A stretch of 64,000 nucleotides of DNA, taken from the NCBI GenBank assembly GCA_900696665.1, contig CAADGY010000015.1, positions 1 through 64,000 of the forward strand. Direction: 5' to 3'. The notes beneath the pieces were generated by a model, which saw nothing but the letters and a program-made list of their open reading frames with translations, was not told the DNA's origin and made no database searches. The stretch's first letter is position 1; each line of letters opens with the position of its first letter. This stretch comes from an uncultured Acidobacteriota bacterium. Its GTDB lineage: Bacteria; Acidobacteriota; Terriglobia; Bryobacterales; Bryobacteraceae. Of the stretch, positions 4,457-18,376 are shown piece by piece. A program made the translations under genes and the position numbers.

Positions 4457-5055
4457 TGACGCCAATCGACAAAGATGCCGTCCTCGATGCGTTCGCGGCA
4501 GAACCCGTTCATGATCGCAACACTCTGGAGCGTTACGTCAGCGAGTACCCGGAGCTTACCGAGGAACTGATCGACCTTGCTGCCGAACTGCGACTCAGCA
4601 CCGAGTTCGCCGGGGCCGAGGAAGGCGTCATCAACGACCCGAAGCTGGAGACCGCTTGGGAGAACTTCCTTGCCGCTGGGCCGAAACCGGCAGTGACGAC
4701 TGCGGTTGTTGACCCCTTCGCGCAATTCAAGGGGGGGGCGTTCGCAACTCTTGCCGGAAAGCTCGATGTTCCGCGTTCACTGCTGACGGCGGTGCGGGAC
4801 CGGCTCGTTGTGCCATCATCCGTTCCAAGCGGCTTTGTTCGCCGCTTTGCGGAAGCGACCGGCACCACGGTCGAAGCGGTCAGAGCATATCTCACACGAG
4901 ATAGCCAGGCACCGTTGGGTCTGGCATTCAAATCGGATCAAAAGCCTTCGCAACAGGGACGAGTCACGTTCCGGCAGCTTGTCGAAAGCACCGAGATGGG
5001 TGAGTCTCAGCGCCTTCTTCTCCTTCGGGAGTGCGAAGAAAATGAACTCACTTGA
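4453..5055 (+). CDS. Unknown 200-aa protein between sigma and protease-helicase genes
   Basis: Not recognised. The protein has an acidic N-terminal helical part (residues 1-60, including TLERYVSEYPELTEELIDLA, the kind of acidic leader seen ahead of anti-sigma or kinase-linked proteins in planctomycetes) and a second helical block with VPSGFVRRFAEATGTTVEAV, which looks HTH-like. No cysteine-rich anti-sigma zinc motif or membrane segment is present. It overlaps the sigma gene upstream and the helicase gene downstream (14 bases), so it is surely co-translated with them. A soluble anti-sigma or substrate for the ImmA/IrrE protease next door is a reasonable guess only. Confidence 0.55.
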   Translation: MMTPIDKDAVLDAFAAEPVHDRNTLERYVSEYPELTEELIDLAAELRLSTEFAGAEEGVINDPKLETAWENFLAAGPKPAVTTAVVDPFAQFKGGAFATLAGKLDVPRSLLTAVRDRLVVPSSVPSGFVRRFAEATGTTVEAVRAYLTRDSQAPLGLAFKSDQKPSQQGRVTFRQLVESTEMGESQRLLLLRECEENELT

Positions 5056-8000
5056 AGCGGGGAGGCAGCGAGCCGAGCGACTACATTCCGAAGCGGTTGC
5101 CGCCGGGCACAATCCGAGAACTCCCTACGATTTCGTTCGGGCAGAGGCCGCAAAGCGGCTGATCGAGGTCGAACGGGTGCCCAAGGGTGACATTCGGCTT
5201 TACGGTGGTCGAGCACTCTACGACCCCGACGCTTTGCTGATCGTGCATGAGGACACAGGCGACCCTTTCCTAGATGCCTTCCTCGTCGCCCACGAGCTCG
5301 GCCACATCGACCTCGGTGGGCAGTCGGAGCCGATGGCGGTGATGGACGCCGATCCGCTACGGGCTGCGGAGGCAGTCCCGATTGGGGTGGAGCGGGTCGT
5401 CGATTACAGCCGTCGGCAGCGACGCGAAGTCCAGATGGACCTGTTCGCGAGAGAGTTTCTGTTGCCCCGTCCCTGGCTCCGCGAACTCCACGTCGCCCAA
5501 GGGATGTCTGCATCGGAGATCGCAACCTTCACGGCTGCCCCATTTGCTGTTGTTGCCCAGCAGCTTCTCGATGCCCTGCTGTTGCCTCGCATCGAAATCG
5601 CCCCGGCCAACGAGACTCCCGAAAGGCCGCTTGCGGCTGATCAGGCGGCGGCGGCCACGCACGAAGGGAGCCCCTACCTGCTCGAAGCCGGGCCGGGGAC
5701 GGGAAAGACCCAAACACTGGTGGGGCGCATCGAGTACCTCCTTTCTCGGGGCGTAGACCCGGAGAAAATCCTGATCCTGACCTTCTCGAACAAAGCGGCC
5801 AACGAACTTTCGGAACGGATCGGGAAGAAGTACCCCGATGCCGCGGCCAGGATGTGGGCCGGAACGTTTCATGGCTTCGGACTCGACATCATTCGCCGGT
5901 TTCATGACCGGCTGAACCTGCCCGTCAGCCCTCGACTGCTCGACCGGTCCGACGCCATCGAACTCCTGGAGAGCGAGTATCCCAAACTGAACCTCGCCCA
6001 TTTCAAAAACCTCTGGGACCCGTCCGATGCGTTGAGCCGAATCCTGTCCGCGATCTCGCGGGCGAACGATGAGGTTGTTGATGCGGCCGGATACCGGATT
6101 CTTGCCGAGAAAATGAACGCTGCGGCAATAACCGACGAGGAACGGGAAGCCGCAGAGAAGTGCCTCGAAGTGGCGACCGCGTTCGCTGCCTACGAGCGGC
6201 TGAAGGCCGAGGGTGGCTGCGTAGACTTCGGCGACCTGGTCGCGCTCCCCGTGCGCCTTTGCGAGTCGCACCCCGACATCCGGGAACACCTGAGGGCTGC
6301 CTACGAGCATGTTCTCGTGGACGAATATCAGGACGTGAACCGGGCGAGCGTGAGGTTGCTCAAGTCGATTGCCAATGATGGCAAGAACCTCTGGGCCGTC
6401 GGCGATGCCAAGCAGTCGATTTACCGCTTTCGGGGAGCTTCCGCTTACAACATGACCCGATTCGGGAAGGAAGATTTTCCCGGTGCGGAACGAGGCCGTT
6501 TGACAATCAACTACCGCAGCCATCAGGAGGTCGTGGCCGCGTACCTCAAGTTCGCGGCCGAAATCCCAAGCGTGCGGGGGGCGAACATTGATCTGACGGC
6601 GAAGCGCGGTGCAGGTGGTTGCCTTCCGGAGTATCGAGCCGTTACGACTTCGGACGACGAAGTGGCCGCCGTTGCGGACGCCATTGAAGAGCTTCGCAAG
6701 CAGGGCTACAGCTACCGCGACCAAGCGATATTGAGTTCGGGAAATGATCGTCTCGGACGATTCGCTGAGGGCCTGGAGCGGCTCGGCATCCCCGTGCTCT
6801 ACCTGGGGAGCCTGTTCGAGCGAGATGAGATCAAGGAGCTGCTTTCGGTCTTGCTGCTGGTCGTCGACCGCCGAGCGATGGGCCTCGTCCGAGTGGCCGC
6901 TGCTGACCGCTGGGCCGTTCCACTTGCGGATGTGGCAAGCGTCCTATGGCATCTGAAAGATCAGGATGGCCTGCCTCTCGCTTGGCTGGCAAACCTCGAC
7001 GGCGTGCCGGGATTGACCGACGAAGGCCGGGGGTGCCTCAAAAAGATCGCGACTCTCGCCAGCGGTTTCAGCATTAACGCGAACCCGTGGGATGTGCTGG
7101 CCTCGGTGCTTCTCGACCGCTCGCGTCTGGCAGCGGAGCTCGCGGAGTCGTCGGGTATCACTGCGCGAACGCAGGCCATCGCCATCTGGCAACTGATGAG
7201 CTTCATCCGCACCCAGCCGCCGGGAAAGGGTCTGCCGATCACACGGTTGCTCGAACGAATTCGGCGGATGGTGCAGCACGGCGACGAGAAGGATTTGCGT
7301 CAGCTTCCGACCTCGGCTCAGGGTATCGACGCTGTGCGGCTGATGACGATGCACGGGAGCAAGGGACTGGAGTTCGGCGCAGTCCACATTCCGGGCATGG
7401 TGAACGGGAGTCTTCCTCGGCCGCCGAAAGGCGATCTGGCACGAGGGATTCTCCCGCCTGACGGCCTGATCGAAGGCGTGAGTGGCAAGAGCCTTGATGC
7501 GCTGCTCTCGTCAATCAGCGAGGAGCACGAGTGCCTGTTCTTCGTGGCGATGTCACGCGCGAAGGACAGGCTGTTCTTTTACTCGCCGACCCAGAAATCC
7601 AACGGTAGCAGTTGGCCTCGATCTGCGTTCATCGACCGCCTCGGAAATCGCATCTCGCAGAGCAGAGTCTCTCCGAAAAGACCTCTCCCGCCCCACGAAA
7701 ACAGCCTGCCGGTTTCTCTGACGATTGAGGCGGGCATGACGCTCACCGATTTCCAACTGGCTCTGTACCAGCGATGTCCCCGTCGCTTCTTCTACACGCA
7801 CGTTCTCGGAATCGGCGGGCGTCGCTCCGAAACCGCGTTCATGAAGATGCACGATGCGGTTCAGAGGGTGATTGACGTTGCCACGGCTGAGGCCGGTGGG
7901 GATTTTTCCCGAGAGCGATTCGATGCGGCCTTTGAAGAAGCGTGGGTTAGCCACGGTCCCGCCGAGCACGGTTATGCCAAAGAGTACAAAGAGATCGCGT

Positions 8001-8461
8001 TGGGCCTGCTTGGGTTCCTGAAGGAATCGACCAACGGCTACGAGGTTCACCGCCCACCCCAGTTGCGGCTTCCGGTCCTGGGAGGTGAGGTCGTCATCAC
8101 CCCGGACCAAGTGGTGAGCGACTCCAGTGGGCAGGTGACCATGCGGAAGGTGAGAACTGGACACAAACAAGACAAGGAGGAAGACACGATTGCCGCCGCT
8201 GCCTTCCACCTCGCCGCATCGGCCCATACCCCCGGGTGTACGGTCGAACTCGTGCATCTCAGTGACGGCACACACACGCCAATTCGAATGTCGTCGAAAG
8301 TCTTCTCGAACCGGCAAGAGAAACTGACAGAGGTGGCAGAGAGCGTGCGGGCCGGTCAGTTTCCACTCACAAAGGATGAGCGACCCTGCCCGCGCTGTCC
8401 CGCCTTCTTCGTCTGCGGGCGACTGCCGGCTGGCTCGCTGGTCAAAAAATTTTCGGCTTGA
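5042..8461 (+). CDS. ImmA/IrrE protease - UvrD helicase - PD-(D/E)XK nuclease fusion
   Basis: About 1139 residues with three parts. Residues about 1-190: an ImmA/IrrE metalloprotease with HELGHIDL and a downstream FAREFLLP. Middle: a superfamily 1A helicase with Walker A EAGPGTGKTQ, VDEYQDVN, GDAKQSIYRFRGAS, NYRSHQE, TMHGSKGLEF and AMSRAKDRLF. C-terminus (from about residue 900): YQRCPRRFFYTH, a possible nuclease core around VVITPDQ...RKVRTGHK, and CPRCPAFFVCG, the cysteine arrangement of AddB/Cas4-like Fe-S nucleases. The ATG at 5042 is inside the previous gene; upstream in-frame codons would overlap it far more. Expected role: DNA unwinding and cleavage gated by proteolysis. The triple fusion is unusual. 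Confidence 0.85.
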   Translation: MNSLEAGRQRAERLHSEAVAAGHNPRTPYDFVRAEAAKRLIEVERVPKGDIRLYGGRALYDPDALLIVHEDTGDPFLDAFLVAHELGHIDLGGQSEPMAVMDADPLRAAEAVPIGVERVVDYSRRQRREVQMDLFAREFLLPRPWLRELHVAQGMSASEIATFTAAPFAVVAQQLLDALLLPRIEIAPANETPERPLAADQAAAATHEGSPYLLEAGPGTGKTQTLVGRIEYLLSRGVDPEKILILTFSNKAANELSERIGKKYPDAAARMWAGTFHGFGLDIIRRFHDRLNLPVSPRLLDRSDAIELLESEYPKLNLAHFKNLWDPSDALSRILSAISRANDEVVDAAGYRILAEKMNAAAITDEEREAAEKCLEVATAFAAYERLKAEGGCVDFGDLVALPVRLCESHPDIREHLRAAYEHVLVDEYQDVNRASVRLLKSIANDGKNLWAVGDAKQSIYRFRGASAYNMTRFGKEDFPGAERGRLTINYRSHQEVVAAYLKFAAEIPSVRGANIDLTAKRGAGGCLPEYRAVTTSDDEVAAVADAIEELRKQGYSYRDQAILSSGNDRLGRFAEGLERLGIPVLYLGSLFERDEIKELLSVLLLVVDRRAMGLVRVAAADRWAVPLADVASVLWHLKDQDGLPLAWLANLDGVPGLTDEGRGCLKKIATLASGFSINANPWDVLASVLLDRSRLAAELAESSGITARTQAIAIWQLMSFIRTQPPGKGLPITRLLERIRRMVQHGDEKDLRQLPTSAQGIDAVRLMTMHGSKGLEFGAVHIPGMVNGSLPRPPKGDLARGILPPDGLIEGVSGKSLDALLSSISEEHECLFFVAMSRAKDRLFFYSPTQKSNGSSWPRSAFIDRLGNRISQSRVSPKRPLPPHENSLPVSLTIEAGMTLTDFQLALYQRCPRRFFYTHVLGIGGRRSETAFMKMHDAVQRVIDVATAEAGGDFSRERFDAAFEEAWVSHGPAEHGYAKEYKEIALGLLGFLKESTNGYEVHRPPQLRLPVLGGEVVITPDQVVSDSSGQVTMRKVRTGHKQDKEEDTIAAAAFHLAASAHTPGCTVELVHLSDGTHTPIRMSSKVFSNRQEKLTEVAESVRAGQFPLTKDERPCPRCPAFFVCGRLPAGSLVKKFSA

Positions 8462-8524: not shown

Positions 8525-9259
8525 ATGACCGAAGAAATGCAAGCCGGAGTAACCGAACGTGAAGTTGCTCCGCAAGGGAATCGCTCCTTTCGCATCCTCG
8601 TGAGCAACGAGACCCTTGAGTTTCGTCCCCTCACCCTCAACGACCCTGTGCCGTTGGGCCGTCAAATCCTGTCGGAAGCGGGCTTCCAACCGCTTCAGGA
8701 GTACAGCCTCTTCGCCATCCTGGCTTCTGGCGATTTCGAGGATGTGCGGCTCGATGAACCCTTCGACCTTCGCGGGAAGGGGGTGGAACGGTTCGTCGCC
8801 TTCCGCTCCGACCGCAGCTTCCGTTTCACCCTGAACGACCGTGAGATTCGGTGGGGCTTCCCGACCATCAGCGGTTCGGCCCTTTACGCCCTCGCCAAGC
8901 CGTCGGACGAGGAAGCCATCTTCCTCGATGTCCGGGGCGGGCAGGACCGGATGATTGAACCCTGCGACACGGTCGAGCTTGCCGACGCCGGAGTCGAGCG
9001 GTTCTACACGGCGAAGCGTCCCCCGCAGTCCTACGAAATCATCGTCAACGGCCGGCCGCGGACCGTCACCGGCAACACCGTGACGTTCGACCAGATCGTG
9101 CAACTCGCTTTTCCGGGAGCGCACGACAGCAACGTCGTTTTCGACGTGACGTACCAGAAGGCTGCTGCCCAGCCGCCCTCCGGGCAACTCGGTCCGGGCG
9201 GTTCCGTGAAAGTCAAGAAAGGAACGGTGTTCAATGTCACGCGAACTGTTCAATCTTAA
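8525..9259 (+). CDS. Multiubiquitin protein (three ubiquitin-like domains)
   Basis: 244 residues consisting of three consecutive beta-grasp, ubiquitin-like repeats: about residues 19-95 (FRILVSNETLEFRPL start), 97-162 (FRFTLNDREIRWGF start) and 168-244 (YEIIVNGRPRTVTG start). This is the multiubiquitin family found beside E1-like genes in bacteria. No diglycine tail is present: the C-terminus ends NVTRTVQS, so conjugation would need another chemistry or processing. GGAGGT lies 8 bases before the ATG, a very strong ribosome site, suggesting high expression relative to the enzymes. It overlaps the E1 gene by 26 bases. Confidence 0.85.
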   Translation: MTEEMQAGVTEREVAPQGNRSFRILVSNETLEFRPLTLNDPVPLGRQILSEAGFQPLQEYSLFAILASGDFEDVRLDEPFDLRGKGVERFVAFRSDRSFRFTLNDREIRWGFPTISGSALYALAKPSDEEAIFLDVRGGQDRMIEPCDTVELADAGVERFYTAKRPPQSYEIIVNGRPRTVTGNTVTFDQIVQLAFPGAHDSNVVFDVTYQKAAAQPPSGQLGPGGSVKVKKGTVFNVTRTVQS

Positions 9260-10409
9260 CCCGGACCTGAAGCGCCTCCGCGACGAGGGGTACTTCGCCC
9301 AGATTCAGGGAGGCCTCCTTCTTGTGCGGGAAGTGCCCTACGTCGATTCCAACCGGTGCGTGCGGCGAGGCACGCTCGTTTCGAGCCTCAACATGGCCGG
9401 GAACAAAACCCAGAAACCCGAGACTCACCAAGTCTGGTTCGATGGGGAGTTCCCCTGCTTTGCCAATGGCACCCCCATCAAGGCGATCGCCAACCAGACC
9501 GGCAACTTCCCGCTGGCGAACGGGATGACCGCGAAGCACCACTTTTCGAGCAAACCCGACGGTGGGTACACCGACTACTACCACAAGATGACGACCTACG
9601 CGGGCGTCATTTCCGGCCCGGCGGCGGAGATTGAACCCGGAGCCACTCCCCGAGTCTATCGTGAGCCGGAAGACGAGGGGGACGGCGTGTTCAACTACAT
9701 CGACACGGCATCTTACCGAGTCGGCATCGGGGCACTCAGCGAACGGCTGGCGAAGGAAACTGTGGCAATTATCGGCCTGGGCGGCAGCGGCTCCTACGTT
9801 CTCGATCTGGTGGCCAAGGTGCCGGTGAAGGAGATCCGGCTCTTCGACGGAGACGAGTTCCTCCAGCACAACGCCTTCCGCGCCCCGGGTGCTCCAGGCC
9901 TCGAAGAATTGCGGGATGTGCCGCGCAAGGTCGAGTACTTCAGGGGCATCTATTCGCGGATGCACCGGAACATCATCGCACACCCGATCTACCTTCGGGA
10001 TGACAAGCTGCCCCTGCTCGATGGCGTTACGTTCGCGTTCTTGTGCATGGACGCGGGCGAAGACAAGAAGGCGGTTGTCGGAAAGCTCGAAGCCATCGGG
10101 GCCTCGTTCGTCGATGTCGGCATGGGGCTTGAACTGAACGATGGCTCGCTCGGCGGCATCCTGCGGGTAACGGCCAGCACGCCGGAGAAGAGAGATCACG
10201 TCCACGGCGGTCGGGTTTCTTTTACCGGCGGCGGAGCCGAGGATCTGTATTCCACGAACATTCAGGTCGCCGATTTGAACGCACTGAATGCAACGCTCGC
10301 GGTCATCAAATGGAAGAAACTGCGGGGGTTCTATCGCGATGTCGTGAGCGAACACCACTGCACCTACACGACCGATGGCAACCTTCTCATAAATGGGGAC
10401 GAGGTATGA
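9234..10409 (+). CDS. E1-like ThiF adenylyltransferase with N-terminal DUF6791/E2-like domain
   Basis: 391 residues. The C-terminal two thirds is an E1/ThiF Rossmann domain: nucleotide loop GLGGSGSYVLD, then IRLFDGDEF...HNAFRAPG with the Asp, Asn and Arg that hold ATP, and FLCMDAGEDK as the later conserved Asp region. The first ~160 residues (LLVREVPYVDS, RRGTLVSSL, HQVWFDGEFPC) match my memory of the DUF6791-type domain seen on such E1 proteins, a possible E2-like module. Expected reaction: adenylation of the C-terminus of the multiubiquitin protein encoded just upstream. Catalytic cysteines cannot be assigned with confidence. Confidence 0.85.
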   Translation: MSRELFNLNPDLKRLRDEGYFAQIQGGLLLVREVPYVDSNRCVRRGTLVSSLNMAGNKTQKPETHQVWFDGEFPCFANGTPIKAIANQTGNFPLANGMTAKHHFSSKPDGGYTDYYHKMTTYAGVISGPAAEIEPGATPRVYREPEDEGDGVFNYIDTASYRVGIGALSERLAKETVAIIGLGGSGSYVLDLVAKVPVKEIRLFDGDEFLQHNAFRAPGAPGLEELRDVPRKVEYFRGIYSRMHRNIIAHPIYLRDDKLPLLDGVTFAFLCMDAGEDKKAVVGKLEAIGASFVDVGMGLELNDGSLGGILRVTASTPEKRDHVHGGRVSFTGGGAEDLYSTNIQVADLNALNATLAVIKWKKLRGFYRDVVSEHHCTYTTDGNLLINGDEV

Positions 10410-10846
10410 TGCGTTCGCTCAAGCACCGCTTCGTCCAGTACATGCCCGAAACACTGGAGCCGGGGATACTCTACATTTCACTTGAGTACGTGACGGCCTC
10501 GCACCTTTGCTGCTGCGGCTGCGGAGAGGAAGTTGTCACTCCGTTCGCGCCGGTCAGTTGGAAGATGACTTTCGACGGGGAAGCTGTCTCCTTGTGGCCA
10601 TCAATCGGGAACTGGAACCTCCGGTGCCGGTCACACTACATCATCGACCGAGGCCGTGTTGTCGTTGCTGGCTCGTGGATGGACGAGCAAGTGGCAGCGG
10701 AACGGCAGCGGGACAAACAGGCGAAAGCCGACTATTTCGGAACGTCGCCCGAGGCACCGCCCGCGTCGCAGGGGCCTGTCGTTCAACCGCCTCCACCTCG
10801 ACAGACCGGCTGGTTCGGCAAAGTGTGGCGACGCCTGTTCGGTTAA
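10406..10846 (+). CDS. DUF6527 family protein, cysteine-rich partner of the ubiquitin-like module
   Basis: 146 residues starting in the ATGATG that overlaps the E1 stop. The core has a cysteine cluster HLCCCGCGEEV, a WPSIGNW segment and CRSHYII, a Cys/His arrangement suggesting metal binding or a peptidase-like centre; the C-terminus is a proline-rich tail. DUF6527 proteins travel with multiubiquitin and E1 genes. Possible roles are processing or removal of the ubiquitin-like protein, but no activity can be read from the sequence. It is the last gene of the operon, followed by a hairpin at 10871-10893. Confidence 0.8.
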   Translation: MMRSLKHRFVQYMPETLEPGILYISLEYVTASHLCCCGCGEEVVTPFAPVSWKMTFDGEAVSLWPSIGNWNLRCRSHYIIDRGRVVVAGSWMDEQVAAERQRDKQAKADYFGTSPEAPPASQGPVVQPPPPRQTGWFGKVWRRLFG

Positions 10847-10904: not shown

Positions 10905-11294
10905 TCACTTGCTCTTCGGACTCGCGGCCGTGGCGATCGCTGCGCCTACGGCCGCCGCGATCCGCTGTTCGTACTCTTCCCGCTCGGGTTGGTTTGCCGG
11001 GGCGTTCCCCGGTCGCTTGAGTTTACCCAGTCGCAATGCCTCTTCCTCAATCTGCGGCATGGCGTCGGCAACGACCTTTAGCATGACTCTAAGGAAATGG
11101 CTGTTTGACAGGTTGGTTCCGGTTGCACGTGATAGAGTTCTCACCGCTTGATAGAGTGTGTCATCGGCCCCGGGCGTGAGCATGAATTCCCGCTTGATGA
11201 TCGGCGTGGTACTCGATTCTGCTTGCGAGGCGTCGGCTGCTCTGGTCTCGTCGATGTTGTATTTGCGATTGTCCTGATGTTGCCGCTTCGGCAT
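10905..11294 (-). CDS. Small protein with helical C-terminus, replicon region, unknown
   Basis: 129 residues from the ATG at 11294 (the frame is open further upstream, but that part is arginine-rich shadow-like sequence). The N-terminus is charged and probably disordered; residues about 45-100 (LYQAVRTLSRATGTNLSNSHFLR, then MLKVVADAMPQIEEEALRL) look like a helical DNA-binding or dimerization segment. Its layout (disordered start, helical end) resembles that of the ParA partner at 14340-14900. A partition or copy-control accessory role is possible from context only. Confidence 0.5.
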   Translation of the reverse strand: MPKRQHQDNRKYNIDETRAADASQAESSTTPIIKREFMLTPGADDTLYQAVRTLSRATGTNLSNSHFLRVMLKVVADAMPQIEEEALRLGKLKRPGNAPANQPEREEYEQRIAAAVGAAIATAASPKSK

Positions 11295-11502
11295 ATACCT
11301 CTCACTGGTAACGCTCCCCGCTCGCGATCCCCCATTCGATTCTCGGGTAGTGGTCCGGTTGCGTGGCTGCCTTCGGCCGTGGTGTGCCTCGCTTGTCAGT
11401 AAGCGGAGATGCCCGAACTGCCGCCCCTGATTATTTTCGCTCGCGGAAAGACTGTTGCTCCCTTCTCTTACCATGTGCTTGTCCCAGCGCCTATGATCAA
11501 TT

Positions 11503-11602
11503 GCGGGCGTTCCTGCATTCCAGAACGCCCGTACTACGAAATTAGAGAATTGCCGAAACCGCTTTGTCAGGCAAGCCACTATCTCCCCGCATTCCCGCAT
11601 GC
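11503..11602. repeat. Palindromic GCGGG..ATTCCCGCAT motifs upstream of the 129-aa gene
   Basis: Two elements: an inverted repeat GCGGGCGTTC (11503-11512) / GAACGCCCG (11523-11531), and CCCGCATTCCCGCATGCGGG near 11583-11602. The second shares GCATTCCCGCAT (reverse ATGCGGGAATGC) with sites upstream of the genes at 13021-14142 and 29503-30534. Likely operators of a shared regulator. Confidence 0.5.
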
Positions 11603-11639
11603 GGGCCTTCATGGATTAAGACCCGGATTTGCGCTACCA

Positions 11640-12990
11640 TTGGGCTGCGGCGGAAACGCTGCGGTTGTCAGTGACGTAAACGCTTCACTTCAGGTTAACG
11701 AAATGGGCGGCACCGCCCGGAAACGCCTGCCTCACCAGCAGGCCCGAGGGTTGAGACTCACCATCTCTCAGTTGGGTGCTGACCCGTAGAGCCGGATGCC
11801 ATGAGAGTGGCTCGTCCGTGCTCGACGGAGGCTTGTCGGAGTAATCGCTGGCTTCGCAGACGCACGCTGCCCTCGTATGGCAGAAGCGGCTCCCGCCAGA
11901 AGTAATCCCGCCATTCTATCCGATAGGTATGCACCCCTGGGGGCCGCGACCGCGAGTCGCGGGAGCCGGGGCGACAGCGACAGACCTTCCTCGCCGGTTG
12001 GCGGGGGAGGCCGCGATGATGCAAAGCGGGTGCAAATCCCGCCCAGGGGGTCCGAACCCGAGTGGTTCGTTCAACCTGGCTGGCGTGGGGAGTTCCCGAC
12101 CTGGTGACAGGCGGGACCGGGTGGCTGACCACACCCGGCGATCGGGGGAAAGACCCGACGACGAATAGCTCAACCACGAGAGGCCCGACAGCAAGGGCTT
12201 GCCAGTGAGTCCGGTCGAAGACGGTGCCGAATTGCGAAAAACCTGCACCGATGGGTAAGGGGATGCTTCTGTGTTCGGTCCCCCGAAATCGCCAAGGCGA
12301 CTTGGCGGAAACGATGCCCGGGCGGGAGTCCGTGGCATACGGTGTAAGGCCCGAGGGGTAACACCCTCTAGGAACGTGATCGGCTGGACGGAGGTCATCG
12401 CTAAGCTGGGAAGGACTGTGGCGGCCGGGAGTGGTACTTCCGGTGCCGGGGAACAGGTCTCCCCGGTGATTCAAAAGCCCAGTCTGGGAGTGTCCCGCAA
12501 GTAGGAGTGGGTGACAAACCCAGCGAGGGCCGCTGCAAGGCAGTGGCGGACTCGTTTGCGTGCTGACGGGTGGTGCCGGGCACGAGGCGACGACGAAAGC
12601 GGGGACGGGTTCTGACCCGTTTCGGTAACGTGTACCGGCGGACAGGGAACGAATCCCAGTTTCGCCGGTCCCTGACGGGAAGTGAAAGCGGCTCAACGAG
12701 GTCCGCTCGGGAGGGCGGCCGTCTTTGAGCTATGAAGTGGCGGACAAGTGAGCTCCGCCGGCTTGCAGTGAACTGCGCTGTGTCGAGGTTTCCGGTGCGC
12801 TACCGCTATGGATTGGGCAGGGGCAACTGAAGAATACAGTTGCCCTGGTGCGCCATAGCGGGTGCGACCGGTCGAACAGGACGTGAAGGTTGTGGCAGGT
12901 GGTTTGCAACCAGCGCACGCGTACTGCTTCACACGGTTTCTCGAAGGAGGTAATACGGAGCGACGGCTTTCGGGGAGCTTGTGCCGTAAA
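11640..12990 (+). ncRNA. Structured RNA region: apparently permuted group II intron
   Basis: About 1.35 kb without convincing coding sequence on either strand, dense in complementary segments. Upstream of the domain V at 11789-11823 are hairpins GGGCGG/CCGCCC (11705-11718) and GCCTGC/GCAGGC (11725-11743). Downstream come many GA-rich, stem-rich blocks resembling group II domains I-III, including a long imperfect hairpin at 12792-12872 and nested stems at about 12880-12935. In an ordinary intron domain V is near the 3' end, yet here the large ribozyme-like portion follows it. No reverse transcriptase/maturase gene is present. Boundaries are approximate. The alternative is two partial introns side by side. 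Confidence 0.55.
11789..11823 (+). ncRNA. Group II intron domain V
   Basis: A 35-nt hairpin with every landmark of catalytic domain V: lower stem GAGC/GCUC (11789-11792 with 11820-11823) containing the AGC triad; CGGA paired with UCCG; the two-base CG bulge at 11813-11814; an upper stem GCCAU/GUGGC; and a GAGA tetraloop at 11803-11806. It aligns almost position for position with known bacterial domain V; the only oddity is one extra U at 11819. A branched structure resembling domain VI follows (CGGAG/CTCCCG at 11837-11841 and 11890-11895). Confidence 0.8.
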
Positions 12991-13020: not shown

Positions 13021-14142
13021 CTACCGACCACTCGCCGAGCTGAGGACGTCGGCGGTCGGCGGCGGCGTGACTGGTTCGCAAGGCATCCCGCCCCCGGAGT
13101 TCGCCCACGCCTCGAAAAGCTGCAACCGTCTCTCGGGTCGGTCGAAGTCGGCCAGCACCTCGACCTGCCGGGCGAACGATAAGTGGTGGACTATGCGGCG
13201 TGTCCTTGTCCGCTCCCCCTCGACGTACTCGTTAAAGGCACGAAGGGCCTCGCCGCCCGCTTCTTCGAGTTGTTGGTAGGCAGCCCTCAGCCTGGTCGTT
13301 TTCTCTTCTCTAATCGCTAGCCCGTGCTTCTGGAGGGCCTTTCTTTCGTGCGCTCTTCTGGCTTCTTGTCGCCCCCTCTCCTTTTGGGCCTTGGCCTTCT
13401 CGTAACCCTGCGGTGGCCCGTACTCGTCCCGGATGGCGTTTGCGAGCCACGCCCCCTTCGAGGACTTGAACTTCGCGTAGGGGAGATACTCCAGACAGCG
13501 GCGGCATACCTCCGGCTTTTCCTTTGCCAAGCGCTTCGCGGCTGAGCCCCCGACTCCGTGACCGATTAGCTCCTCAACCAGGGCAGCATCAACACCGCTC
13601 TCCGCCTCACGGCTACTCCCCTCGCCTGCTGCTGTTTCTTGACCTGTTTCTTGTGCTGTTTCTTGTGGGGCCGCTTTTTGGCCTACCCCCCGGTCAGTTA
13701 CTGGCCTACCTGCCGCGCTTTTCTGGCCAGCCTGGGCTTTTTTTGGGCCTACGTAGGCTTTTTTCTGGCCTACCCCGGTTACGGAGGTGAAAAGGTTCAA
13801 TCGGTAAGTACTCTCCTCGCACTCCTGGCTGTCTTCGCATCGGTTATTGCGCCGGACCAGTATCCCCCGCTCTATGAGACCGTTGCAGGCGGTCTTCACG
13901 CCCGACCGTGAGAGGCCAGTTCCTCGGTCGAGCTGCGTACCATCACGTCTTCGAATGCCCGAGGCCATCTGGTTCAGGCTGATGTTATCGCTGTCTTTAC
14001 CGAATCCATAAGTACGGCGAGCCACGTAAAGCAACACTTTTAGCTCGGCACCCGATAGGTCTGCCATCCAGTGGTCCAGGATGATATCCGGAACCTGCGT
14101 GCTGTTCGGTATCAATGCCCGCGTCATCGGGTTTGTCCGCAA
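13021..14142 (-). CDS. Phage replication protein O-like winged-helix replication protein
   Basis: 373 residues (an alternative start five codons later). The N-terminus has the lambda O-type signature: TQVPDIILDHWM, then LSGAELKVLLYVARRTYGFGK and a second HTH block SLNQMASGIRR...SRSGVKTACNGLIERGILV (residues about 14-110). The middle is a Gln/Lys/Gly-rich linker with repeated GQK/GPKKA units; the C-terminus is helical and charged. O-type proteins bind origin repeats and load helicase. Neighbours are ParA, its partner and the CCGATAACG repeats, so this is the initiator candidate for the first replicon. The shared regulatory palindrome lies about 100 bases upstream. Confidence 0.65.
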   Translation of the reverse strand: MRTNPMTRALIPNSTQVPDIILDHWMADLSGAELKVLLYVARRTYGFGKDSDNISLNQMASGIRRRDGTQLDRGTGLSRSGVKTACNGLIERGILVRRNNRCEDSQECEESTYRLNLFTSVTGVGQKKAYVGPKKAQAGQKSAAGRPVTDRGVGQKAAPQETAQETGQETAAGEGSSREAESGVDAALVEELIGHGVGGSAAKRLAKEKPEVCRRCLEYLPYAKFKSSKGAWLANAIRDEYGPPQGYEKAKAQKERGRQEARRAHERKALQKHGLAIREEKTTRLRAAYQQLEEAGGEALRAFNEYVEGERTRTRRIVHHLSFARQVEVLADFDRPERRLQLFEAWANSGGGMPCEPVTPPPTADVLSSASGR

Positions 14143-14235
14143 AGCCCACTTTCCAAGCGTTCTGTGAAGCCATCCCGCTTGGAACTGGGTAGTGATCAGT
14201 GCTATTCCGCCTCAATTTCATTGGACGCGCATCGC

Positions 14236-14267
14236 GTATGCAGGGATGCGGGAATGCCTGCATAGTA
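14236..14267. repeat. ATGCAGG..CCTGCAT palindrome upstream of the replication gene
   Basis: Outer arms ATGCAGG and CCTGCAT enclose GATGCGGGAATG. The 19 bases at 14246-14264 recur exactly, on the other strand, at 30765-30783 upstream of the DUF932 gene. Probably an operator shared across the element. Confidence 0.55.
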
Positions 14268-14339
14268 GCCCGATTTTGGACCAGTGGGAAAGCACCTATC
14301 TTGGAGGACACCGCACGCGCAACAACGACCCCTCGGCAA

Positions 14340-14900
14340 TCAACGCACGGGTCCTGCGTCCCTGATTCCGTCTGCAAGAATCCTTGCAATTTCCCGCTCG
14401 AACCTCTGAAGGGCCAGAGCGTCGCCGTTGGGCGGCCGGACGAGAGTGCCGGCCTCCCCGGCCCGCCTATCGACCTGAGCTTCGGCGTGGAGGAGAAGGG
14501 CAACCAGGGCACGTATCACATGGCTTACCTTTACCTGGGCGTTGAGTCGGGCGGCGAGAGAGGTCACGAGGCGGTCGATGGCTTGGGTCTCCCCTCGCGT
14601 AAAAAGGATCCGCTTCTCCTGGTCGAACTTCTCGACGTGGACCAGTGGGGTTCGGCTCTCTTCACGACTTGGCCCTGCGGCCACCGAATGGGACTCTGGT
14701 TGAATCTGCCCGATTCTCCGCAACGGTTCGACCTTCGGGACATCAGGGGGCTTCCCGGTTCCCCCGCTCGCAGTGCGCGGCAGTTCTACCTCCTTCGGGG
14801 GAGCGCTGGGGGTTACGGCCTGGGACAGCGCCGCCGACACCAGTGCGGCATCGAGGAGCGGCCTGTACGGTTGCTCGTCGGGAGCGGCTCGCTTAGCCAT
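14340..14900 (-). CDS. ParA partner, probable centromere-binding protein
   Basis: 186 residues, starting inside the last codons of the ParA gene (8-base overlap). The first ~100 residues are proline- and alanine-rich and probably disordered; the C-terminal part (LFTRGETQAIDRLVTSLAAR...VKVSHVIRALVALLL) looks like a compact helical DNA-binding domain of the ribbon-helix-helix kind. Gene order ParA-small basic protein is typical of plasmid partition cassettes, where the second protein binds the centromere and stimulates the ATPase. No ParB motif is seen, so the assignment rests on context. Confidence 0.6.
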   Translation of the reverse strand: MAKRAAPDEQPYRPLLDAALVSAALSQAVTPSAPPKEVELPRTASGGTGKPPDVPKVEPLRRIGQIQPESHSVAAGPSREESRTPLVHVEKFDQEKRILFTRGETQAIDRLVTSLAARLNAQVKVSHVIRALVALLLHAEAQVDRRAGEAGTLVRPPNGDALALQRFEREIARILADGIRDAGPVR

Positions 14901-15762
14901 TTACCACCCCCCGCTGTTCTTCGATGGCAACACTCCCCGCATGAATCTTCGCGAGCCTCGCTTCGATCTCAGCGGCGAGCGCACGGTATTCGTCGGTCAC
15001 CTTGTGGGTTGAGTGAGTCTCGAAGAGCGTCCTGCCGACTTTCTGGGTTTGTGGGATCACGGTCGAGCGACCGATAGACGACTTGAACTTGACCGACTCG
15101 GCGTTCTCCCCGGCCCGAAACGAGTTCTCGACAAATTCGGAGAGTGCGTTCGCGAGGCTTGTTCTCTTATCGACGCCGGAGATGACCACACCAAGAAGAA
15201 CAAGTTTCGTATTACCCCGGGAGCGTGCGTCCATAATGTCGCGCATCGCGTCGTTCAGGCCCGCGATTGCGAACGGGTCCGGCATTGCCGAGAGGACAAA
15301 GTAATCGGCGTTCATGTACGCCGCCAGTGTCGGAAGGGTCGCATTGGGCGCGGTGTCGAGGAAAATGAAGTCGTACTTGCCTCGCAAGGAATCAAGGGGC
15401 TTCTTGAGCACCTCGTGTGGTGTCATGAACTTGCTTTTGGCCATCACGGCCTGATCGATGCCTTCCAGCTTCCTCGCCGCCGGAATGAGATCCAGATTCT
15501 CGGGGAGGATGACTCCCTCCTCCTTGTCGGCGTGACTGAGAATCAGATTTTCGGCTGGCTCCTCGCCCGCAAGCATCTCGAACGATCCGAGAAACGCCTC
15601 TGGCTCGACGCCGAAATGCCTCGTCGCCCCGTGATTCATGTCGAGGTCGATGATGAGGCACTTATGTCCGCGCTCGGCGAGCGCCCGCGCGATATGGACC
15701 GTATTTGTTGTCTTCCCTACTCCACCCTTCTGATTGCCGACTGCGATGACGTGTGTATTCAT
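14893..15762 (-). CDS. parA: ParA-family partition ATPase (first replicon)
   Basis: 289 residues with a deviant Walker A, GNQKGGVGKTTNTVHIA, at the very N-terminus; Walker A' IIDLDMNHGATRHF; and Walker B FIFLDTAPN. These define the MinD/ParA ATPases that move plasmids or nucleoids by ATP-dependent DNA binding. No N-terminal HTH extension is present, so it is a short (type Ib-like) ParA and autoregulation would fall to the partner. GGAGGA precedes the ATG. The repeat array at 15803-16153 sits just upstream, the expected location of an operator or centromere. Confidence 0.9.
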   Translation of the reverse strand: MNTHVIAVGNQKGGVGKTTNTVHIARALAERGHKCLIIDLDMNHGATRHFGVEPEAFLGSFEMLAGEEPAENLILSHADKEEGVILPENLDLIPAARKLEGIDQAVMAKSKFMTPHEVLKKPLDSLRGKYDFIFLDTAPNATLPTLAAYMNADYFVLSAMPDPFAIAGLNDAMRDIMDARSRGNTKLVLLGVVISGVDKRTSLANALSEFVENSFRAGENAESVKFKSSIGRSTVIPQTQKVGRTLFETHSTHKVTDEYRALAAEIEARLAKIHAGSVAIEEQRGVVNG

Positions 15763-16434: not shown

Positions 16435-17790
16435 TTGTGTTGCCTGAACTTGGCGCTCCTCGCTTTGAGGAGGATAGGGAACGTGTGCGTTGAATCTGGA
16501 TACAAGACAGTAACGGCGACGGAGATCGGAAACTGCATATCGGCCTTGAACCGGAAGGTGATCTCGTACCGGGCGGTACGGGTCTACTTTGGCTGCCTTG
16601 CTCTTGTCGCCATACGGGACGCGGCAAGGCGGGCTGCGGTGAGGGTAGGGAGGCGACCCGGGACCGTGCCGCGCTACCGAGTGGGCGAGCTTTGCGAGCT
16701 AACGGGCCTCTCAAATCGGAGGATCGAGCGTGAACTGCGTTCCTTGAGCCAAGCCGGAATTCTGTTCTTTTCAGAAAGCCACATCGAAATAGCTCGGGAG
16801 CCGTCGCCGGAGGGCGAAAGCCTCGCCCGGGCTTTCGCGGGGAATCGCTCGCACAGAAGACCCATACCGGTTCCTCGATCGGTGCTTCGCTTTCTCGCTC
16901 GCTCTGAACGTCCCGCCCTCGGGAAAACGGTCCTCGCGTATGTCCTTCGCGGAATGTCCATCGACAGGAGCAGCGGAGAGGTGAGGGGAGTGGGGACCGT
17001 CAAGGCGTCATGGATCGCGGATGCGATGAAGGTTTCGTTGCGAGCGGCCAAAGCGGCCAGGCGAGACCTTATCGAGCGCGGATTCATCTCGAAGGATACC
17101 GGGTCGTGGCAACGGAAGTTGAATCGGGACGGGGCTTACTTCCAAGTGAATCTGTCGTGGAAGGATGAGAGAGAAGGACTCCGGGGCGAGGTGCCCGCCG
17201 TCGTGAGGCGGCTCGACATGCCGGTGTCCAGAATTGCACCCCGGTCGGGTCAAAACTGCCACGCTTTTGCACCCCCTATTAAAGACAAGAAAACTCCTTA
17301 CGGATCTAAAAACCAGAAACCTTGCACACGCAAGTTGCCTGGTGTTTCTGGGGTAGAGAGAAGAGGGGAGGGGCCAACCCTTCGCGACGTCCAGTTGGTG
17401 GACATCAAGGACTTTCGTCGGACCGAGGCCCTTTACCGACAGGCTGTTGACTTGGGTTGGGTCAAAGAGTCTGAAGCGAGCTTCCTGAATTGGGTTGGAG
17501 CCGCGGTGCGGGCGAAGAGTTGCCGGGCAAACGATCCCGTCAGGGTTTTTCTTGGGATCGTGCGTCAGGGGCTTTGGCAAAACATCACGGATTCTGAAGA
17601 GGAGAGGGCGCGGCAGGCAATCAACCGCTATCGCCACGACGGTGATGGGGCTCGGTACCACCAGGGAGCCGTCCTCTCGTGTTTTCAGCACGTTACCGAA
17701 ATCGTAAGCAGGAACGCGGGAATGCCTGAATCAAGGGCGGCGGGCGGGCGGAATAGTGGGTATGTACCAATTCGAGGCCACATCCGTTGA
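16435..17790 (+). CDS. Winged-helix DNA-binding protein of the replicon, unknown function
   Basis: Up to 451 residues; the start is uncertain (TTG at 16435 or GTG at 16483). Two helix-turn-helix blocks are visible: YRVGELCELTGLSNRRIERE (around residue 83) and GTVKASWIADAMKVSLRAAK (around 187), with a winged-helix feel like initiator or O-type proteins. The C-terminal region (VDLGWVKESEASFLNWVGAA) is helical and resembles the tail seen in planctomycete mobile-element replication proteins. It lies immediately downstream of the CCGATAACG array, so binding to that array as initiator or regulator is plausible. It overlaps the next gene by 29 bases. Confidence 0.55.
   Translation: MCCLNLALLALRRIGNVCVESGYKTVTATEIGNCISALNRKVISYRAVRVYFGCLALVAIRDAARRAAVRVGRRPGTVPRYRVGELCELTGLSNRRIERELRSLSQAGILFFSESHIEIAREPSPEGESLARAFAGNRSHRRPIPVPRSVLRFLARSERPALGKTVLAYVLRGMSIDRSSGEVRGVGTVKASWIADAMKVSLRAAKAARRDLIERGFISKDTGSWQRKLNRDGAYFQVNLSWKDEREGLRGEVPAVVRRLDMPVSRIAPRSGQNCHAFAPPIKDKKTPYGSKNQKPCTRKLPGVSGVERRGEGPTLRDVQLVDIKDFRRTEALYRQAVDLGWVKESEASFLNWVGAAVRAKSCRANDPVRVFLGIVRQGLWQNITDSEEERARQAINRYRHDGDGARYHQGAVLSCFQHVTEIVSRNAGMPESRAAGGRNSGYVPIRGHIR
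17716..17729. repeat. GCGGGAATGCCTGA motif upstream of the 204-aa gene
   Basis: Matches 12 of 13 bases of the element found at 14249-14262, here inside the 3' end of the preceding gene and 33 bases before the next start. Part of the shared motif set. Confidence 0.35.
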
Positions 17791-18376
17791 AGGGTTCGTT
17801 CAGCAACTTGCCGTTTCATATCTCGGGCATGGTTACTGGTTCTACGTGATGGGTGAGGTGCCGGAAGGGAAGGATGTTTGTCGGGTGGATGAGAAGCTCA
17901 TAGCACGCTACCAGATTGATCGGTCCAAGTGGGCGAGGGCGCGGCGCAAGCGGGCAGGGTTTGCGAACCTCCATTACCTCCGCTTCGACCGCGTGTTTCT
18001 GCTTCTCGCCACGCACGGGAGTCACCCGTTCTTCCTGGAAGAGGCGTCCGCGATCCGGGACGCGCGGAAAACGCCCATCCGGTTTCACGGCTATTCCATT
18101 AGCTACCGTGGCGGGCATCCGCACGTCCGCATCGAGCAGGAGGAGTATAAGCGGCTCAAAGCCTATTTCCTCGATCTGGCCCTGCGTTGGTCGGTGGAGC
18201 GACTGGAAGCCGAGTTTTCAAGGCTGCCGTTCGAGCCATACGCGCCGGTTCGTCGCCAGTTGCTTGCGGTGCTCCGATCCGTGAACCGGGAGCGGAAGAG
18301 GGGAGGGCTTCCACTCGTCCCCAACACCTGCTTCCGTTTTATCCGGCGAATCTACCGGCCGTTCGAGAAGGTGTAG
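17762..18376 (+). CDS. Unknown 204-aa protein of the mobile backbone
   Basis: Not recognised. The protein is rich in aromatic and basic residues (YLGHGYWFYVMGEVPEG, KWARARRKRAGFANLHYLRF, GYSISYRGGHPHVRIEQEEY, NTCFRFIRRIYRPFEKV), suggestive of a nucleic-acid-binding fold. A His/Tyr-bearing core like that of small replication or transposase-type nucleases is conceivable, but no HUH or DDE motif is complete. The ATG at 17762 is preferred over a GTG six bases earlier. It partly overlaps the wHTH gene, implying joint expression. Confidence 0.5.
   Translation: MYQFEATSVEGFVQQLAVSYLGHGYWFYVMGEVPEGKDVCRVDEKLIARYQIDRSKWARARRKRAGFANLHYLRFDRVFLLLATHGSHPFFLEEASAIRDARKTPIRFHGYSISYRGGHPHVRIEQEEYKRLKAYFLDLALRWSVERLEAEFSRLPFEPYAPVRRQLLAVLRSVNRERKRGGLPLVPNTCFRFIRRIYRPFEKV

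Follow-up and report, generated by a model that had tools for sequence, protein, structure and literature searches.

RESULTS

Architecture of the locus

The stretch of DNA analyzed here, referred to as the window, comprises positions 1 to 64,000 of contig CAADGY010000015.1 from an uncultured Acidobacteriota bacterium (assembly GCA_900696665.1). At 11694-12847 on its plus strand lies an element that is very probably a member of the circularly permuted (CP) group II ribozyme class and that, by analogy with published members, would be expected to undergo back-splicing. Its parts follow the order P1-P2-D5-D6-linker-D1-D2-D3, so that domains 5 and 6 (D5-D6) lie 5' of domains 1 to 3 (D1-D3). The features of the locus, including its exon-binding site (EBS), the intron-binding site (IBS) in the linker, a second complementary site that we call IBS*, and an acpG homologue, are listed below. 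Percentages are those paired versus shuffled in a covariation analysis of the whole core, using an alignment of 56 to 58 rows.

11694-11703, plus strand: 5' strand of a pseudoknot joining the 5' and 3' ends, with 12620-12629 (69% paired versus 55% shuffled, maximum 59%; nine pairs with double changes)
11708-11781, plus strand: 5' P domain, with base helix 11708-11714/11775-11781, P1-type hairpin 11725-11743 and P2 hairpin 11753-11767 (covariation)
11782-11787, plus strand: strand of the core-closing helix, pairing with 12605-12610 at the position of the split D4 (97% versus 78%)
11789-11823, plus strand: D5, with AGC triad 11790-11792, GAGA tetraloop 11803-11806, CG bulge 11813-11814 and an extra U at 11819 (RF00029, 32.8 bits; covariation)
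11826-11924, plus strand: D6 (distal helix 99% versus 56%, proximal helix 100% versus 85%)
11925-11968, plus strand: linker (joined exons), a predicted 44-nt RNA circle bounded by CCGAT and GGGCG; IBS at 11963-11968
11969-12408, plus strand: D1, beginning GGGCGACAG (covariation)
12269-12276, plus strand: EBS loop CTGTGTTC (EBS1 at 12271-12276), a D1 loop with conserved GCTTCT-NNN-TTC
12413-12485, plus strand: D2 (94% versus 61%)
12494-12603, plus strand: D3 (97% versus 66%), with a conserved AAGTAG / ACGAAAG base loop
12605-12629, plus strand: 3' strands pairing with 11782-11787 and 11694-11703 (covariation)
12820-12845, plus strand: IBS* hairpin, with IBS* at 12832-12839, GAATAC|AG, complementary to the EBS at 8/8 positions (one G-U)
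17756-18376, plus strand: acpG homologue of 206 amino acids (AcpG profile E value 3e-14), with a predicted reverse transcriptase (RT)/maturase fold that has no YxDD motif

An earlier note, made from the sequence alone, had proposed a permuted group II intron here, with a D5 placed upstream of about 1 kb of stem-rich sequence resembling D1-D3. That D5, with its triad, tetraloop and bulge, is exactly where it was described. The roughly 1 kb on its 3' side does correspond to D1-D3: most of the helices tested show 82 to 100% pairing and two-sided pair changes, where shuffling gave means of 48 to 85%. The absence of a maturase gene also holds for the element, as neither an RT motif nor an intron-encoded protein lies within the ribozyme. 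The predicted excised segment is indeed a short linker between D6 and D1; its bounds are 11925-11968 rather than the suggested 11900-11935 or so. The element itself reaches to about 11694 on the 5' side and to about 12847 on the 3' side.

Covariation recovered D1, D2, D3, D5, D6, the core-closing helix, the end-to-end pairing and a P2-D2 pseudoknot. On six loci, 13/25 pairs of D5 and D6 change on both sides and 99% of cells are paired; when the 3' strands were slid by 1 to 3 columns as a control, D5/D6 pairing fell to 32 to 56%. D6 carries a bulged branch-point A at 11918 and an internal loop, AGTAA/AATC, as in the class. The core-closing helix could also be read by eye in the published members pPNAP05 and pTT8, and the AAGTAG / ACGAAAG motifs of D3 are present in both. 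The main text of the study that described CP group II ribozymes (Roth et al. 2021, iScience 24:103431, PMC8637638) names three class-specific pseudoknots, D3 loop-D1, P1-3' end and P2-D2. A P2-D2 loop-loop pairing was found between 11759-11763 and 12432-12436 (85% paired versus 74% shuffled, maximum 78%), and the pairing of 11694-11703 with 12620-12629 probably represents the P1-3' end pseudoknot.

The 3' splice site lies at 11924/11925, after CTATCCGAT, where AT at 11923-11924 fits the published NU. The 5' splice site lies at 11968/11969, before GGGCGACAG, and its GGGCG at 11969 fits the published motif. The predicted 44-nt circle holds a 7-bp hairpin, and the predicted circles of relatives are 16 to 55 nt long, inside the 15 to 86 nt reported for linkers of the class in PMC8637638.

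Searches with Rfam and covariance models

In a 2.2-kb search, RF00029 (Intron_gpII) matched D5 with 32.8 bits (E value 4e-4; the gathering score of the family is 40), and the match runs on from D5 through the long D6 to 11924. An Rfam search of the whole window at the gathering threshold gave no match. A covariance model of D5, D6, linker and 5' splice site, based on six loci of which the window is one, found a single copy in the window with 143.9 bits and no second D5. The canonical order, with D1 5' of D5, was not found in the window by the RF00029 and covariance-model searches or by covariation; the covariance searches detected neither a D1 5' of 11789 nor a further D5 near 12950, the two arrangements that the earlier note had set against its own proposal.

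Relatives and distribution

A search of 151 related genomes with the window DNA identified four loci, from other genera of the same family, in which a D5 segment is followed by a D1 segment. P2, D5, D6, the linker, GGGCGA and the D1 motifs are conserved in their alignment. A wider survey, consisting of a pattern scan of named genomes together with the six-locus covariance model, brought the number to at least about 70 loci in Planctomycetota, Acidobacteriota, Verrucomicrobia, Hydrogenedentota, Bdellovibrionales, Nitrospira and Proteobacteria, most of them in Planctomycetota and Acidobacteriota. These homologues, which the earlier note had suggested seeking, keep the same D5-D6-linker-D1 order with strong covariation, in agreement with the permuted reading, and the locus in the window shows the defining marks of the class. 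The CP class is common in phyla that the main text of PMC8637638 does not name, where acpG follows downstream in the orientation of the ribozyme.

In the first family survey, CP loci scored 86 to 160 bits with the covariance model, against up to about 43 bits for D5-D6 of ordinary group II introns. The published pPNAP05 ribozyme scored 43 bits with the six-locus model, and model scores alone therefore cannot classify distant members. A match in genome G076 was rejected as chance, and one in genome G077 was rejected as a P2-D5 remnant without D1 rather than a full ribozyme; this orphan fragment (L022, about 5904-6008, minus strand) is a decayed CP copy. The K2D plasmid of a Planctomycetes bacterium also carries a CP locus, with a replication gene on the same plasmid stretch. 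A blastn search of the ribozyme core against plasmids and phages gave no match, and a pattern search of viral contigs gave no CP locus.

The ribozyme core is 97% identical to that of one Gemmataceae contig and 93% identical to that of another (SSF1), with surrounding alignments at 93% and 85%, the latter value being that of the whole 2.7-kb match. This higher conservation of the core relative to its flanks suggests purifying selection.

The exon-binding loop and the linker

The linker IBS was taken as the 6 nt preceding GGGCG. Across loci, 112/165 variable positions of EBS and IBS are paired, whereas 5,000 shuffles gave a mean of 68 and a maximum of 88. The EBS1-IBS1 pairing of the class is thus supported by covariation across loci, with complete 6/6 pairing in only 7/55 of them.

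IBS*, a second partner of the exon-binding loop

A covariation scan that was not aimed at such a site indicated that the EBS has a further pairing partner in a hairpin region roughly 230 nt downstream of D3. IBS* has the consensus GAA-NNN-AG and is complementary to the entire EBS octamer. On a complement-blind alignment, 116/144 variable-position pairs were formed (shuffled mean 69, maximum 88), and pairing was complete (8/8) in 36 of 48 loci. A direct search of each locus found an 8/8 complement of the EBS in 44/51, compared to 22% with swapped EBS, at a near-constant distance of mostly 510 to 694 nt from the EBS. These tests are uncorrected for relatedness among the loci, which contain 27 distinct EBS octamers. 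The usual position of IBS* is between the ribozyme and acpG, and in many loci it lies inside a stable predicted RNA hairpin.

In Thermus and Proteobacteria, including pTT8 and pPNAP05, the interval separating the ribozyme from a divergent acpG, on the 5' side, contains a perfect IBS*. The EBS-IBS* pairs are GGAATCTC with GAGATTCC or GGAACCTC with GAGGTTCC, and the EBS motif and acpG were both recognized in 14 loci, every one of which has a perfect IBS* on the acpG side. In Burkholderia glumae, a variant IBS* covaries with its EBS. When Proteobacteria were searched only 3' of the ribozyme, IBS* was absent there, and it was located on the 5' side. IBS* was not found in Thiothrix, in a stretch searched that lacks acpG, and the EBS motif was not recognized in Sulfuriferula, pTthSNM1-1f and pWG16. 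In pPNAP05, IBS* (GAGATT|CC) has the same sequence as the ligation junction of the 32-nt circle, and IBS* therefore is a mimic of ligated exons. Covariation shows that the EBS pairs with IBS*, a kind of site that the main text of PMC8637638 does not describe. In Pandoraea, an IS256 transposase gene lies between IBS* and the ribozyme, yet IBS* remains beside acpG.

The acpG gene and its product

The AcpG profile was built from nine proteins of Thermus and Proteobacteria, and the E value of 3e-14 for 17756-18376 is against one target. An open reading frame (ORF) at 10905-11612 on the minus strand, divergent and upstream of the ribozyme, was tried as acpG and rejected. Of 57 loci in relatives, 46 have acpG downstream in the orientation of the ribozyme, and none has it on the opposite strand; seven of the 11 loci without acpG have less than 1.9 kb of downstream sequence. 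In the window, a replication/ParA module on the other strand separates IBS* from acpG, and the same arrangement is found in a Gemmataceae contig. The module (13021-15762, minus strand) encodes a replication-like protein (Phage_rep_O), an unmatched ORF and ParA, and is a plasmid-like maintenance module adjoining the ribozyme. In many Thermus loci, a ribbon-helix-helix gene lies between acpG and the CP RNA.

AcpG matched no Pfam or NCBIfam family. Its AlphaFold model (pLDDT 96.2), searched with VIA-align, gave a list in which the top ten were all RTs of the group II type, with Z scores of 8.4 to 9.7, and Prp8 near 8. As the best Z score of the background is typically 7 to 8, support comes from the coherence of the list and not from any one Z score. 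The match covers 173 to 186 of the 206 residues and corresponds, on the predicted model, to the palm and thumb fold of RTs. The catalytic YxDD pattern is present in only 2/43 AcpG proteins and is not conserved in their alignment; AcpG has no RT catalytic residues and no known endonuclease domain. AcpG is thus probably, judging from its predicted structure, a minimal and catalytically dead maturase with a fold like that of group II intron RT/maturases.

DISCUSSION

The element in the window shares with canonical bacterial group II introns (RF00029) the D5-D6 catalytic core, a D1-D3 region with an EBS, and the branch-point chemistry expected of it. In contrast to canonical introns, in which the order is D1-D6, D4 holds the intron-encoded protein, and a lariat and linear exons are produced, D5-D6 come first in this element, no such protein lies inside, and a circle and a T-shaped RNA would be the expected products. 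The likeness to pPNAP05 and pTT8 (PMC8637638) extends to domain order, the GGGCG and NU splice sites, the bulged A of D6, linker size, EBS-IBS pairing, the P2-D2 pseudoknot, the D1-D3 motifs, the lack of an internal ORF and a nearby acpG. The locus in the window differs from those members in that acpG is co-directional and downstream rather than divergent and upstream, in that IBS* is on the 3' side, and in its EBS (CTNNNTTC versus GGAAYCTC); the phyla of its relatives are also not named in the main text of that study. The class is known but rare, and the arrangement in the window, with a co-directional acpG and a 3' IBS*, is a variant of the published form. The possibility that ordinary group II introns, decayed or truncated in tandem, have come to be adjacent by chance agrees with the detection by Rfam of only a sub-threshold D5, but is extremely improbable. 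The permuted order, the helices that join the 5' part to the 3' part and the EBS-IBS pairing are kept in at least about 70 loci, neither a second D5 nor a D1 5' of D5 is present, and conservation of the permuted order across phyla refutes tandem or decayed canonical introns.

Branching and circle formation have been reported in vitro for the class in PMC8637638. By analogy with that work, the branch-point A at 11918 would attack the 5' splice site (11968/11969), after which the new 3' end of the linker would attack the 3' splice site (11924/11925), so that the 44-nt circle is set free and a branched RNA in the shape of a T remains. We infer that the circle would then depart with its IBS, and that the freed EBS (12269-12276) could dock on IBS* (12832-12839), placing a mimic of ligated exons in the active site. 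Docking might sever the transcript at 12837/12838 through hydrolysis or partial reverse splicing, or might at least keep the ribozyme in the state reached after splicing. AcpG, RT-like without an RT active site, would presumably act as a maturase that aids RNA folding.

The function of IBS* is something that we infer, and three readings have to be weighed. IBS* may be a second RNA substrate or competitor of the ribozyme in cis, which we consider the likeliest of the three, at slightly short of an even chance. It is also conceivable, if not what we would expect, that, in the same ribozyme, IBS* has a purely structural role as a pseudoknot fastening the EBS subdomain to the RNA ends, and is never cut, in which case it would stabilize the fold or sequester the EBS until the linker competes. 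The eight base pairs are continuous across the would-be cut (CT/AG, GG/CC), like a stable loop-loop helix, extra pseudoknots are known from the class (PMC8637638), and IBS* is near the RNA termini on either side, where terminal helices join the ends; however, the EBS would have to quit a structural IBS* at each splicing event. An unlikely reading is that IBS* is a DNA target, such that the branched RNA and AcpG would reverse-splice into or nick their own locus near acpG or a plasmid replicon, in the manner of mobile group II introns at their homing sites. IBS* does resemble the core of a homing site (IBS1 plus delta'), CP RNAs occur near plasmid replication genes in the window and in K2D, the CP RNA of pPNAP05 is near the plasmid origin according to PMC8637638, and the predicted fold of AcpG is that of a protein that aids reverse splicing of group II introns. 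Nevertheless, predicted RNA hairpins hold IBS* in many co-directional loci, which favors a role in RNA, AcpG has neither RT catalytic residues nor a known endonuclease domain, and replication of pTT8 was reported in PMC8637638 to be unaffected by deletion of its CP region.

A more speculative proposal, which we hold to be less likely than not, is that the CP ribozyme and AcpG, a dead maturase with an RT fold, form a two-part ribonucleoprotein. In it, the EBS, once the circle is expelled, would act on the cis IBS* next to acpG, whether by cleaving RNA, by reverse splicing or by targeting DNA. Several observations count against parts of our overall reading of the locus. The extra U at 11819 is beside the catalytic triad of D5; it is also present in the nearest Gemmataceae copies and in 8/75 loci, and is therefore inherited rather than a private lesion. 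The D3 loop-D1 pseudoknot, tried in one register, was paired at chance level, and EBS-IBS pairing in the window itself is just 4/6. The likeness of AcpG to RTs is in predicted structure only, as hhalign against 21 group II RTs and a Pfam scan gave nothing significant. The window acpG is 4.9 kb past IBS*, an exceptional distance, and a strict role of IBS* as an acpG leader therefore fails in the window. Finally, IBS* is 5' of the ribozyme in Thermus and Proteobacteria and 3' in the lineage of the window, so that cleavage at IBS* cannot serve the same mRNA in both arrangements.

The roles of CP group II ribozymes and AcpG were stated as not known in PMC8637638, and the question has stood since 2021. 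If the ribonucleoprotein exists as proposed, it would supply the class with a genuine substrate and with a possible biological role. The 8-nt EBS target conserved beside acpG in all three lineages examined (Planctomycetota/Acidobacteriota, Proteobacteria and Thermus) provides a handle on the function of the ribozyme, and the predicted structural identity of AcpG, as a minimal maturase-like protein that lacks an RT active site, provides one on the protein. The predicted fold of AcpG is like that of group II RT/maturases and the RT-like domain of Prp8 over 173 to 186 residues; AcpG differs from group II RT/maturases in its size (only about 206 amino acids), its lack of YxDD and the lack of a significant sequence match. 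Judged on the model, AcpG might be a bacterial counterpart in kind to Prp8. Both IBS* and the predicted fold of AcpG appear to be new relative to the main text of PMC8637638, the one paper found on the class.

Genomic context

Window positions 1-24000 are 93 to 95% identical over 8 to 9.6 kb to a Gemmataceae (Planctomycetota) contig, while the family of the genome belongs to the Acidobacteriota, with Bryobacterales relatives. The assembly is fragmented, and the window is on a 78-kb contig. This Gemmataceae-like contig in an Acidobacteriota genome is either misbinned or a recently moved replicon. Another contig of the same assembly (C87, 2902-4047) carries an ordinary group II intron with an RT and D5-D6, which could provide RT in trans.

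Upstream of the ribozyme, positions 8525-10846 hold an operon for a multiubiquitin protein (PF14452), a ThiF-like E1 with DUF6791, and DUF6527, which is a bacterial ubiquitin-like conjugation cassette. Positions 4808-8461 encode a 1,217-amino-acid fusion of an apparently metallopeptidase-like N terminus (HxxxH) and a UvrD-type helicase, the helicase part of which resembles defense helicases such as GajB.
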